Assembly (NCBI RefSeq): GCF_029948125.1
Contig: NZ_JASAMB010000001.1
Span: forward strand, 124,001 to 188,000
Direction of reading: 5' to 3'
Length of the DNA stretch: 64,000 nucleotides
From: Catellatospora sp. KI3
GTDB lineage: Bacteria > Actinomycetota > Actinomycetes > Mycobacteriales > Micromonosporaceae
The notes below the pieces were generated by a model. It was not told the DNA's origin. It made no database searches and was given only the letters and a program-made list of their open reading frames with translations. The first letter of the stretch is position 1. Each line of letters begins with the position of its first letter. Below, in pieces: positions 25,042-39,324 of the stretch. The translations under genes were made by a program, and so were the position numbers.

Positions 25042-25141
25042 CGTTCGCCCTCCTGCGGCCACATCCTGCCGAGAAACCGTACCCCGCCGCGGCACGGCAC
25101 GCGCGTTAGCCACGGACGGCGGCCGTGGGACGTCAGCCGGG

Positions 25142-25849
25142 TCACACCGGCACGACCGGACCGCCCGCGGCGCGCCCCCGTGGGGTAACGCCCGAACCGT
25201 CACGATCCATCGCCCGTGCGACGTTCTGGTACGAGTGCCGGTGCACCGGGCTGGGCCCGAACCGCTCCAGCGCGGCCGTGTGCTCAGCCGTGCTGTACCC
25301 CTTGTGCACCGCGAAGCCGTACTGGGGGTACACCATATCGAGCTGCGTCATGATCCGGTCACGGGACACCTTGGCGAGCACGCTCGCCGCCGCCACGCAC
25401 GCCGCGACCTGGTCGCCCTTCCACACCGCCAGCCCCGGCACGCCGACCCCGTCGACGGGGAAGCCGTCGGACAGCACGTACGACGGGCGCACGGTCAGCG
25501 CGGCCAGCGCCCGGCGCATCGCGGCGAGGTTGCACACGTGCAGGCCCCGGGCGTCGATCTCGGGCGCCTCGATCACGATCACCGCGTACGCCGAGGCCAC
25601 CGCGACCACCCGGTCGAAGATCCGGTCCCGGGCTGCCGCGGTGAGCAGCTTCGAGTCGGTCAGCCCCTCGATCTCGCCCCGCCGGCCCGGCGGCAGGACC
25701 GCCGCGGCGGCTACCAGCGGCCCCGCGCAGGCGCCCCGGCCCGCCTCGTCGGCGCCCGCGACGACGGCGAAGCCGCGCCGCTGCAGCGCCCGCTCCAGGG
25801 CGTAGAGGCCGCTCTCGGAGCGGAGCACCGGCCGCGTGGGGGTCAGCAC
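25142..25849 (-). CDS. rnhB: Ribonuclease HII
   Basis: 235 residues from a GTG at 25849 that overlaps the Nudix stop by 7 bases. The catalytic signature GADEAGRGACAGPL supplies Asp/Glu. EGLTDSKLLTAAARDRIF, the ASVLAKVSRDRIM motif and the C-terminal GYSTAEHTAALERFGPSPVHR follow. It cleaves RNA in RNA-DNA hybrids and single ribonucleotides. Translational coupling to the Nudix gene is clear. A start further upstream would lie inside that gene. Confidence 0.95.
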   Translation of the reverse strand: MLTPTRPVLRSESGLYALERALQRRGFAVVAGADEAGRGACAGPLVAAAAVLPPGRRGEIEGLTDSKLLTAAARDRIFDRVVAVASAYAVIVIEAPEIDARGLHVCNLAAMRRALAALTVRPSYVLSDGFPVDGVGVPGLAVWKGDQVAACVAAASVLAKVSRDRIMTQLDMVYPQYGFAVHKGYSTAEHTAALERFGPSPVHRHSYQNVARAMDRDGSGVTPRGRAAGGPVVPV

Positions 25850-36454: not shown

Positions 36455-37369
36455 TCATACTGTTTCGCGGTGCAGCCAGGGCAGCAGGTCGGGGGCGCCG
36501 TACGCGGCGGCCAGGTCGGCGGCGCGAGCCTGGTAGCGAGCCAGTTCGGCGGGGTCGAGCAGTTCCCGGCCGGCACCGGAGCCGCCCCGGCGGAAGAAGG
36601 CGGACCGGCTCTTGAGTACGCCCAGACTGTCCGGGACCAACCGGTCGGCGCCCGCCCGCATCCGTTCGAACGTGGCCGCCTCCACCAGGATCGGCCAGGT
36701 GTGCTCGGGCACCGCGATGCCCAGCCGGGCCGCGAGCGCCCGCATCTGCCCGTCCAGGTCGGCCAGCAGGTCGTCGTAGTGCACCAGCACGACGTTGGGC
36801 TGCTCGCGGCGGCGCCAGGCGTCGGCGAGATGCCAGATCACGCCGGGCAGCGAGTCCATCTCCTCGCGGGGATCGGCCTCGCGGGCGGCCCAGCGAAGCA
36901 GGGCCTCGTGCTCGGTGCGCTGCGGCCGGGGCGGCTCGGCCGGGTCGGGCGCGGGCTGGCCGGTGAGTTCGCGCAGGCGGGCCCGGTCGAGGTTGTTGCT
37001 CTGGTGGTGCAGCGACACGGCCATGTCCAGCGGATGCCGCGCGACCACCACGTAGACGCACTCGTCGTGCAGCGGGACCCCGTCCAGCGGGGTGTGCGTC
37101 TTGAGGAAGCGGCGGTGCGGCTGCGCGGCGAGCTGCGCGTACACCTCGTCGGCGGGGGTGACCAGCCAGTCCAGCCAGGGCGACAGCTCGTTCAGCGGCG
37201 CGGGCAGGTGGGGGGTCTGGAAGACCAGCAGGGCGCAGATCATCTGCATCCAGGTGGTGCCGCTCTTGGAGCGGGTACTGATCACGATGTCGCCGGCGCG
37301 GGGCGGGAAGGCGAGCCAGCGGGCACTGTCCTCGTCGGACGACCGGTAGCGGACGGGTTGATCAGGCAT
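36455..37369 (-). CDS. Sulfotransferase (PAPS-dependent)
   Basis: 304 residues. The 5'-phosphosulfate loop is STRSKSGTTWMQMI (~31-44), the 3'-phosphate motif is VVVARHPLDMAVSLHHQ (~105-120), and a FFRRGGSGAGRELL segment near the end replaces the usual RKGxxGDW. This matches the cytosolic-type Sulfotransfer_1 family. The acceptor is unknown. The start is 58-75 bp from a LexA box on the same intergenic region, but the box overlaps a promoter that reads the other way. Confidence 0.9.
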   Translation of the reverse strand: MPDQPVRYRSSDEDSARWLAFPPRAGDIVISTRSKSGTTWMQMICALLVFQTPHLPAPLNELSPWLDWLVTPADEVYAQLAAQPHRRFLKTHTPLDGVPLHDECVYVVVARHPLDMAVSLHHQSNNLDRARLRELTGQPAPDPAEPPRPQRTEHEALLRWAAREADPREEMDSLPGVIWHLADAWRRREQPNVVLVHYDDLLADLDGQMRALAARLGIAVPEHTWPILVEAATFERMRAGADRLVPDSLGVLKSRSAFFRRGGSGAGRELLDPAELARYQARAADLAAAYGAPDLLPWLHRETV

Positions 37370-37417
37370 GACGCCGAGGGTAGACGATCATTCACGGTTC
37401 ACTCGAACGAGAAGACC

Positions 37418-37446
37418 TTGCCTTGTTCGAACACCTGTTCGATAAT
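37418..37446 (+). promoter_or_regulatory. Promoter overlapping a perfect LexA/SOS box
   Basis: TTGCCT (37418-37423), a 17-base spacer and GATAAT (37441-37446) form a near-consensus housekeeping promoter. The palindrome TCGAAC-ACCT-GTTCGA (37427-37442) matches the mycobacterial/actinobacterial LexA box TCGAAC(N4)GTTCGA exactly and spans the spacer and the first bases of the -10, where LexA would block RNA polymerase. Transcription would begin near 37453. Confidence 0.85.
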
Positions 37447-37452
37447 GGATGC

Positions 37453-37524
37453 ATGGCGGGGCGCCGGGGCAGCTGGGTGATGGCAGTCAGCTTCTGCCCC
37501 GACGCCTCACCGTTGGCGACGTGA
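37453..37524 (+). CDS. Candidate leaderless 23-residue SOS-controlled peptide
   Basis: An ATG lies exactly 7 bases after the -10 hexamer, where transcription should begin, giving a leaderless mRNA of the kind common in actinobacteria. The frame encodes a 23-residue peptide beginning MAGRRGSWVMAVSFCP and ending ASPLAT, with G/C at 21 of 23 third positions. It has one Cys and a short hydrophobic centre. No homologue is recognised. The reading frame could be incidental to a structured RNA. Confidence 0.35.
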   Translation: MAGRRGSWVMAVSFCPDASPLAT

Positions 37525-37560
37525 GGCATCGCCGACGACCTGCATCGATCCAATGCAGAC

Positions 37561-37620
37561 GAAGACCGCCGTCCCCCGGCGCGCACCGCGCGCACAAGCC
37601 CTCGGGGGACGGCGGTCTTC
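37561..37620. terminator. Shared terminator of the SOS unit and ffh (18-bp perfect stem)
   Basis: GAAGACCGCCGTCCCCCG pairs with CGGGGGACGGCGGTCTTC around a 24-base loop that itself contains GCGCG inverted repeats. It lies 9 bp beyond the ffh stop. Confidence 0.88.
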
Positions 37621-37629
37621 GTCACGTCC

Positions 37630-39189
37630 CTACTTGTCCTTGTCGCCCTTCATCAGCTTGCCGAAGTCGAGCTTCGGGGCCTTGAACGCGCCGCCGCTCT
37701 GACCGCCGAGCTGCTGCTCCAGTGCGGCCGGGTCCATGCCCGGGGGCAACTGCGGCATGCCCGCGGGCATCCCGCCGGGCAGGCCCGCGAAGCCGCCCCG
37801 GCCGCCGCCACCGCCGCCGCCCTTGGTGCCCTTGCGCTTGTTCTTCGGCGACTTGGTCGCCTTGCGGCGGGCACCGGGCAGGCCCATCATGCCGCCCATC
37901 TGCTTCATCATCTTCTGCGCCTGCTCGAAGCGGTTGAGCAGCTGGTTGACGTCCATCACGGTGACACCCGAACCGCGGGCGATGCGGGCCCGGCGCGAGC
38001 CGTTGATGATCTTCGGCGTGGTCCGCTCGGCCGGGGTCATCGAGCGGATGATCGCGGTGACCCGGTCGAAGTGACTGTCGTCGAGCTCCGCGAGCTGGTC
38101 CTTCATCTGCCCCATGCCGGGCATCATGCCGAGCAGGTTCGCGATCGGACCCATCCGCCGTACGGCGACGAGCTGGTCGAGGAAGTCCTCCAGGGTGAAC
38201 TGCTCGCCACCGAGCAGCTTCGACGCCATCTTCTCCTTCTGATCGGCGTCGAAGGCCTGCTCGGCCTGCTCGATCAGGGTGAGCACGTCGCCCATGCCGA
38301 GGATGCGGCTGGCCATCCGGTCGGGGTGGAAGACGTCGAAGTCCTCCAGCTTCTCGCCGGTGGACGCGAACAGGATCGGCTGGCCGGTGACCTCGCGCAC
38401 CGACAGCGCCGCGCCGCCGCGGGCGTCGCCGTCGAGCTTCGACAGGACCACACCGGTGATGCCCACGCCGTCGCGGAACGCCTCGGCGGTGGCCACCGCG
38501 TCCTGGCCGACCATGGCGTCGATGACGAAGATGACCTCGTCGGGGTTGACCGCGTCGCGGATCGCGGCGGCCTGGTTCATCATCTCGACGTCGATACCGA
38601 GGCGGCCGGCGGTGTCGACGATCACGATGTCGCGCATGGCGCGCTTGGCGTGCTCGATCGAGTCCTTGGCGACCTGGACCGGGTCGCCGACGCCGTTGCC
38701 CGGCTCCGGCGCGTACACCTCGACACCGGCGCGCTGGCCGAGCACCTGGAGCTGGTTGACCGCGTTGGGGCGCTGGAGGTCGCACGCGACCAGCAGCGGC
38801 TGGTTGCCCTGGGCCTTGAGCCAGCGGGCCAGCTTGCCCGCGAGCGTGGTCTTACCGGAACCCTGCAGACCGGCCAGCATGATCACGGTCGGCGGCTGCT
38901 TGGCGAACTGCAGGCGCCGCGCCTGCCCGCCGAGGATCGCGATCAGCTCCTCGTGGACGATCTTGATGATCTGCTGGGCGGGGTTCAGCGCCTGCGACAC
39001 CTGCGCGCCGCGCGCCCGCTCCTTGAGCTTGAAGATGAAGGCCTTGACCACCGGCAGCGCGACGTCGGCCTCCAGCAGCGCCAGTCGGATCTCACGCGCG
39101 GTGGCGTCGATGTCGGCGTCGGTGAGCCGGCCCTTGCCCCGCAGCTTCGTGAAGATGCCGGAGAGCCGGTCGCTCAGGGTGTCAAACAC
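37630..39189 (-). CDS. ffh: Signal recognition particle protein Ffh
   Basis: 519 residues from a GTG at 39189 (FDTLSDRLSGIFTKLRGKG). The N domain is followed by the G domain with GLQGSGKTT, DTAGRLGID, TKLDG-type SKLDGDARGG and the M domain (GMMPGMGQMKDQ, TPAERTTPKIINGSRRARIARGSG). The C-terminal ~60 residues are Gly/Pro/Met-rich (a run of seven Gly) and longer than in many Ffh proteins. It targets membrane and secreted proteins with 4.5S RNA to FtsY. The transcript ends at the shared terminator. Confidence 0.98.
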   Translation of the reverse strand: MFDTLSDRLSGIFTKLRGKGRLTDADIDATAREIRLALLEADVALPVVKAFIFKLKERARGAQVSQALNPAQQIIKIVHEELIAILGGQARRLQFAKQPPTVIMLAGLQGSGKTTLAGKLARWLKAQGNQPLLVACDLQRPNAVNQLQVLGQRAGVEVYAPEPGNGVGDPVQVAKDSIEHAKRAMRDIVIVDTAGRLGIDVEMMNQAAAIRDAVNPDEVIFVIDAMVGQDAVATAEAFRDGVGITGVVLSKLDGDARGGAALSVREVTGQPILFASTGEKLEDFDVFHPDRMASRILGMGDVLTLIEQAEQAFDADQKEKMASKLLGGEQFTLEDFLDQLVAVRRMGPIANLLGMMPGMGQMKDQLAELDDSHFDRVTAIIRSMTPAERTTPKIINGSRRARIARGSGVTVMDVNQLLNRFEQAQKMMKQMGGMMGLPGARRKATKSPKNKRKGTKGGGGGGGRGGFAGLPGGMPAGMPQLPPGMDPAALEQQLGGQSGGAFKAPKLDFGKLMKGDKDK

Positions 39190-39324
39190 AGCGCAACATC
39201 CCAAATCGTCGAGTTCTACTGGGTACAGGCAGAAGCAGCCTTGGTAAGGGTAGCCCGTGCCCACCCGCCCCACCGCGCCCGCGCGCCCTGTCCCGTCTCT
39301 TCCCCGCCCCGCAGCGCGTCATGC

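Follow-up and report, generated by a model that had tools for sequence, protein, structure and literature searches.

What lies between the 3' end of the signal recognition particle gene ffh and its upstream neighbour in Catellatospora sp. KI3, and what might it do when DNA is damaged? The question arises in a 64,000-nucleotide stretch of that genome (contig NZ_JASAMB010000001.1, positions 124,001 to 188,000; hereafter the window, to whose positions all coordinates refer), in which an earlier note had pointed to a promoter carrying a LexA (SOS) box and driving a transcript without a known gene, perhaps a small RNA (sRNA), perhaps a peptide. Comparison across the 11 Catellatospora genomes examined makes a stand-alone LexA-controlled sRNA gene of this genus a well-supported reading, and the loop of its first hairpin is predicted to pair with the leader of whiB1. 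The features of the element are as follows.

37418-37446, plus strand: sigma-70-like promoter TTGCCT-17-GATAAT (TTGCCT at 37418-37423, GATAAT at 37441-37446), read in the sequence and found by a promoter scan.
37427-37442, no strand assigned: perfect LexA box TCGAACACCTGTTCGA, the palindrome TCGAAC-N4-GTTCGA.
37453-37623, plus strand: predicted sRNA of about 170 nucleotides (nt), its start taken from the -10 element and its end from the end hairpin; evidence from fold, covariance model and covariation.
37455-37511, plus strand: hairpin P1, with compensatory stem changes (helices 1 and 2, 23 pairs, 3 of them with double changes).
37477-37487, plus strand: apical loop of P1, GUGAUGGCAGU, the proposed seed against the whiB1 leader (alignment, complement search and start-region scan).
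37512-37536, plus strand: additional hairpin, confined to the window's clade (3 of 11 genomes; fold and alignment).
37540-37558, plus strand: hairpin P2, whose loop holds CGAUCC (fold and alignment).
37559-37622, no strand assigned: long end hairpin against the convergent ffh, presumed to be a two-way terminator (double changes at 6 of 18 counted pairs).

The promoter and box named in the earlier note are both in place, the promoter as the single site found by a scan of 37300-37700 (shuffles: mean 0.0, standard deviation 0.2) and the perfect palindrome inside it, reaching past the spacer to overlap the first two bases of the -10. Such a palindrome occurs at four places in the 8.2 Mb genome, against one for the backward control pattern, and agrees with the consensus tCGAAC-N4-GNNCGa reported for LexA of Streptomyces venezuelae (PMC9380542). 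Throughout the genus the box takes the form TCGAAC-ANNT-GTTCGA, and both half-sites and the -10 are identical in all 11 genomes while the central four bases vary, which is what a LexA operator would be expected to show. Seven genomes have TTGCCT as the -35, with a 17-nt spacer, and the other four have TTGCTT or TTGCGC, with 18 nt. The combined pattern TTCGAAC-N4-GTTCGATAAT was found in 11/11 genomes of the genus and in 3 of 189 others, the latter being genomes of the same family in which the pattern is followed by short frames with different sequence downstream, and not by the RNA. At these three loci (L100, L112 and L113), the frames are alike in L112 and L113, which come from one genus.

The genus also appears equipped to use such an operator. 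Proteins with the LexA_DNA_bind domain above cut-off were present in all 11 genomes, the canonical LexA of the KI3 genome is assigned to TIGR00498, and a two-mismatch box TCGTACAGATGTTTGA stands upstream of the canonical lexA start in every genome, albeit covered at one locus by an over-long frame from the gene caller. The box at 37427-37442 is closer to the consensus than lexA's own. Allowing at most one mismatch to TCGAACANNTGTTCGA, the KI3 genome holds 10 places (2 for the backward control), namely the studied box, three other perfect palindromes and six one-mismatch sites, four of which lie inside called genes and two before genes. One such one-mismatch box, TCGAACATATGTTTGA (L126, C1:801781 of the KI3 genome), directly precedes an intein-bearing radical SAM gene of the Rv2578c family, and a one-mismatch box also precedes a SAV_6107-like HEPN-domain gene (PF18726; L129, 712-1458), which is followed by imuA'. 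A LexA system that uses this kind of operator is therefore likely. More than one protein exceeds the LexA_DNA_bind cut-off in 10 of the 11 genomes (L201-L212), so more than one candidate could bind the box there. Genome G005 has two lexA copies (L190 on C1 and L200 on C44) with the same protein start as printed, perhaps an assembly duplicate or contamination.

Downstream of this promoter, folding of 37453-37623 gave -114.2 kcal/mol (z -8.6; none of 200 shuffles equalled it), a strong score owed in large part to the long end hairpin, and recovered P1, the extra hairpin and P2, in agreement with the further stems that had been described. The conservation of box and stems in relatives, whose failure the earlier note would have taken as refutation, held in all 11 genomes. 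Of the 506 cells that the 46 named pairs make up in the 11-sequence alignment, 99.0% are paired, against a shuffled mean of 94.4; double changes are seen in 26 cells (8.2 on average in shuffles), and covariation scores 0.196 (0.106 on average in shuffles). None of 500 shuffles reached any of these three of the five measures. Compensatory double changes occur at 9 of the 46 pairs, three in the P1 stem and six in the end hairpin. The two weaker measures count against the structure: nine double-change pairs, with a shuffled mean of 5.8, were reached by 9 of 500 shuffles, and the 19 further pair types do not exceed shuffles (352 of 500 reach them). The double changes mostly separate the window's clade of three genomes from the other eight, and hence represent few independent events, while P2 is nearly invariant and for that reason gives no covariation signal. 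Slid controls (1-3 columns) pair in 39-51% of cells, a comparison in which the structure is favoured by having been drawn partly from the consensus of the same sequences. As to the proposed terminator, the long end hairpin appears in the fold but has no U run, and a scan for U-tract terminators listed none, so that termination is presumed from the hairpin. No Rfam family reached its gathering score anywhere in the window, in keeping with the suggestion that no known gene is present; hits at the locus to animal microRNA families were weak, below the gathering score, and were taken as chance.

The element is confined to its genus. Box, -10, hairpins and the adjoining ffh end recur in 11/11 Catellatospora genomes, a recurrence of box, -10 and RNA that, on comparison of the sequences, is beyond chance. 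Of 300 genomes of the family, which for Catellatospora is the Micromonosporaceae (PMC9130861), 11 were matched by a covariance model derived from the element's 11 copies: 11/11 within the genus and 0/289 outside it. In a DNA search of 61 relatives, strong matches (E 8e-15 or better) were restricted to the same 11 genomes, the best match elsewhere having E 3.6e-5 over 34 bases, and a second DNA query likewise matched all 11. A search for distant homologues with model R1 in 300 family and 397 order genomes, made with Infernal's stricter filters, which lose weak matches, returned outside the genus two weak hits (28.7 and 25 bits), the order set otherwise giving the KI3 genome itself. Neither of the two has a LexA-like box or the core of the loop, and both were taken as chance.

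The P1 loop, GUGAUGGCAGU, is invariant in the genus apart from one inserted U in a single genome (G006). Outside the sRNA gene, its complement ACTGCCATCAC has 25 exact matches in the 11 genomes. Each genome contributes one match at whiB1, eleven in all, placed 27-31 nt ahead of the ATG and 0-4 nt upstream of AAGGAG. Among the 25, whiB1 is the sole place to recur in every genome, with the match on the right strand and adjoining the Shine-Dalgarno sequence; the other 14 are scattered, one of them (L138) within the first codons of another gene. The protein encoded by whiB1 belongs to PF02467 and finds its best solved match in WhiB1 of Mycobacterium tuberculosis (5oay, E 1.5e-38), with no NCBIfam match at 1e-5. 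Among the start regions of about a tenth of the KI3 genome (724 regions, a tenth chosen to include whiB1 and with genes and starts from a crude caller, which tempers the ranking), whiB1 came first, the runner-up having 8 contiguous pairs to its 12, and a next-best duplex of -21.2 kcal/mol comparing with its -23.7 (mean -12.9, standard deviation 2.6). Within the genus, variation affects 23 of the 45 columns that precede the site and none of the ten site columns compared. In other genera, 27 whiB1 leaders were examined, from 58 such genomes with a match, and none has the exact site. Many whiB1 leaders in which the upstream sequence was judged by eye carry a CATAnAG-like -10 further upstream, so the site should fall within the whiB1 messenger RNA (mRNA). 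WhiB1 is reported to be essential in M. tuberculosis, where it contacts SigA, and its Streptomyces counterpart WblE to be of disputed importance (PMC6282962). Judged from the sequences, whiB1 is a good prediction as target, though an unproven one.

What sequence comparison shows is a conserved element with its box and fold, the absence of a shared frame, and a loop complementary to the whiB1 leader; that LexA binds the box, that the RNA is transcribed and induced, and that it pairs with its target in the cell to negative effect is what we infer from these. In the undamaged cell, LexA would sit on the box between -35 and -10 and no RNA would be made. Upon DNA damage, RecA-driven cleavage of LexA would free the promoter, and an RNA of about 160-180 nt would accumulate, consisting of the long hairpin P1, the short P2 and an end hairpin in common with the convergent ffh. 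The P1 loop would then most likely pair with ACUGCCAUCAC, 0-4 nt upstream of the whiB1 AAGGAG, and thereby keep ribosomes off the whiB1 leader, so that DNA damage would lower WhiB1. The LexA and RNA steps are modelled on the established SOS pathway and on sRNA action as described for DinR on ftsZ (PMC10907235). That a LexA-repressed sRNA blocks whiB1 translation through its P1 loop on DNA damage strikes us as an evenly balanced proposition; the broader proposal, in which a genus-specific SOS sRNA wires DNA damage to the iron-sulphur factor WhiB1/WblE and lowers a regulator that contacts SigA, falls a little short of an even chance.

The chief competitor keeps the LexA-controlled sRNA but treats the whiB1 match as coincidental, the loop pairing with other mRNAs or binding a protein instead; we regard it as a serious, if tentative, possibility, the gene and its fold being better supported than the target. 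Several observations weigh in its favour and against regulation of whiB1. Against the 724 start regions, shuffled loops reached twelve contiguous pairs in 21 of 5000 cases when mononucleotides were shuffled and in 50 of 5000 when dinucleotides were (the real loop may be among the latter), and random genomic 14-mers did so in 283 of 4901; at such rates a single chance match of this length is not rare genome-wide, and the chance odds of one 11-12 nt match per genome are modest. Conservation of whiB1 leaders is ordinary: in other genera, six of seven genus pairs keep an identical run of at least 10 nt near the whiB1 Shine-Dalgarno sequence, and conservation of the site within Catellatospora consequently adds less than it seems to. 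The best of the 27 outgroup leaders shares 9 of the 11 site bases, and part of the whiB1 site is, by this comparison, older than the element. The extra U in G006 leaves 10 pairs with the site, the fold model pairs four of the loop bases with one another (two pairs, at high probability in most genomes), and the mean unpaired probability is 0.40-0.55 for the 11 loop bases and 0.49-0.72 for the leader site. Nowhere in the 11 genomes is a change in the loop matched by a compensatory one in the leader. The P2 loop, too, has conserved matches without evident sense: its complement GGATCGATGCA recurs in 9 of 11 genomes in a region that is not a start region, and in the other two (G005 and G009, at L236 and L238) another copy of the P2-loop complement covers a start codon.

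The conserved GGATCGATGCA copy seems to lie in the loop of a terminator-like intergenic hairpin (L219-L225, L229 and L233; C1:31413 in the KI3 genome), which is 10.4-11 kb from lexA in the six genomes where both share a contig, and the gene at L236/L238 is small and membrane-protein-like (MQPNQ.../MQPDQ...). The P2 loop was rejected as a second seed and is retained as a warning about chance matches; whole-transcript duplex energies were set aside, as they ignore internal structure. What speaks against coincidence at whiB1 is the recurrence described above, which no other place among the 25 exact hits shares. The match coincides exactly with the apical loop, lies on the right strand at the one position where pairing would block ribosomes, and occurs in every genome examined that bears the RNA; in the 27 outgroup leaders it is incomplete.

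The remaining alternatives concern the nature of the element itself. In the window, an ATG stands at the predicted +1, and the earlier note had considered a leaderless 23-codon peptide; together with the invariant ATGGCAGTCAGC in and after the loop, this might suggest a DNA-damage-induced peptide, read either from that frame or from an ATG in the P1 loop. The comparison largely refutes such a peptide, which we find hardly tenable. The 23-codon frame has its full length in the window's genome alone, stops after 7 codons in two genomes and lacks its ATG in the other 8 of 11, and the frame from the loop ATG runs to 14, 33, 36, 65 or 75 codons depending on the genome. A six-frame check found no frame of at least 12 codons whose start and stop agree across the 11 genomes; the most widely shared stop is common to eight, with differing starts, some of them within the promoter, and the best antisense stop to six. 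Neither strand holds the conserved small toxin frame of an SOS type I toxin-antitoxin system in the 11 genomes. With the 23-codon frame unconserved and none of at least 12 codons common to all genomes, the element is, on this evidence, meant as RNA and not as peptide; the locus combines a promoter of its own and an end hairpin that presumably terminates transcription with the lack of a conserved frame. It is also very unlikely that there is no independent gene, the structure being the 3' end and terminator of ffh and the box and promoter being due to chance or serving the divergent gene. The neighbours at issue are these.

36455-37369, minus strand: sulfotransferase-domain gene (PF00685), the divergent upstream neighbour, in 3 of 11 genomes.
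37630-39273, minus strand: ffh, encoding the signal recognition particle protein (TIGR00959), the conserved convergent neighbour.

In support of that reading, the end hairpin adjoins ffh, and in the window 57 bp separate the box from the start of the divergent sulfotransferase gene. However, the promoter is directed into the RNA, and box, -10 and P1 are kept in 11/11 genomes although the upstream sequence differs by clade. The sulfotransferase-ffh neighbourhood itself is only half preserved: the ffh 3' end follows the element in every genome, bearing out the statement that the transcript ends against ffh, whereas the sulfotransferase gene belongs to the window's clade (3 of 11) and other sequence takes its place in 8 of 11. 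The gene calls behind this comparison came from a rough caller, which assigned 4 of the 11 ffh genes to the wrong strand. Moreover, no GAAC-N4-GTTC motif stood beside ffh in 27 ffh loci from other genera (27 of 57 genomes with a match), one such locus carrying the motif more than 1 kb from ffh and on its other side. Finally, action on RNA polymerase in the manner of Ms1 or 6S RNA is barely conceivable. The RNA has a long irregular hairpin, and Ms1, a structured actinobacterial sRNA, has been reported in Catellatospora; nevertheless, Ms1, which binds the RNA polymerase core, has a neighbourhood of HAD-hydrolase and oxidoreductase genes and not ffh (PMC9130861). Neither an Rfam model match nor a HAD hydrolase neighbourhood, the neighbours being judged by eye, was found here, the local microRNA-family hits mentioned above lying below the gathering score, and the folds show no large central bubble by eye. 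Elsewhere in the window, ARAGORN places a 95-nt transfer RNA for glycine, tRNA-Gly(gcc), at 25062-25156 on the minus strand, which seems long for glycine.

How does a LexA-controlled sRNA with whiB1 as its predicted target compare with systems already described? In Escherichia coli, the sRNA IstR-2 is placed in the tisB/istR toxin-antitoxin locus. It resembles the Catellatospora RNA in that its expression is inhibited by LexA (PMC2527527), and IstR-1 is named with the same locus (PMC8145889), whereas the Catellatospora element has no conserved small frame. Closer in mode of action is DinR of Klebsiella pneumoniae, which is reported to be LexA-controlled after DNA damage and to repress translation by pairing at the ribosome-binding site; DinR, however, is cut from a 3' end and targets ftsZ (PMC10907235), while the Catellatospora RNA has its own LexA-box promoter, an actinobacterial host and whiB1 as predicted target. 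The non-coding RNAs of M. tuberculosis share the actinobacterial setting and the link to DNA damage, 120 having been reported under mitomycin C, but the passages of that report consulted show neither a LexA-box sRNA gene with a conserved fold nor a whiB1 target (PMC5057432). Among the literature matches listed, with subscription papers and supplementary tables outside their scope, no description of a LexA-controlled sRNA in actinobacteria was found. What appears to be new is that an actinobacterial genus carries a stand-alone gene for an SOS sRNA, and that the target predicted for it is of a new class.

Should the proposed regulation of whiB1 hold, a damage-controlled brake on WhiB1 would link DNA repair to a central actinobacterial transcription factor, and the predicted pairing is precise enough that it could be tested by point mutation in a soil bacterium.
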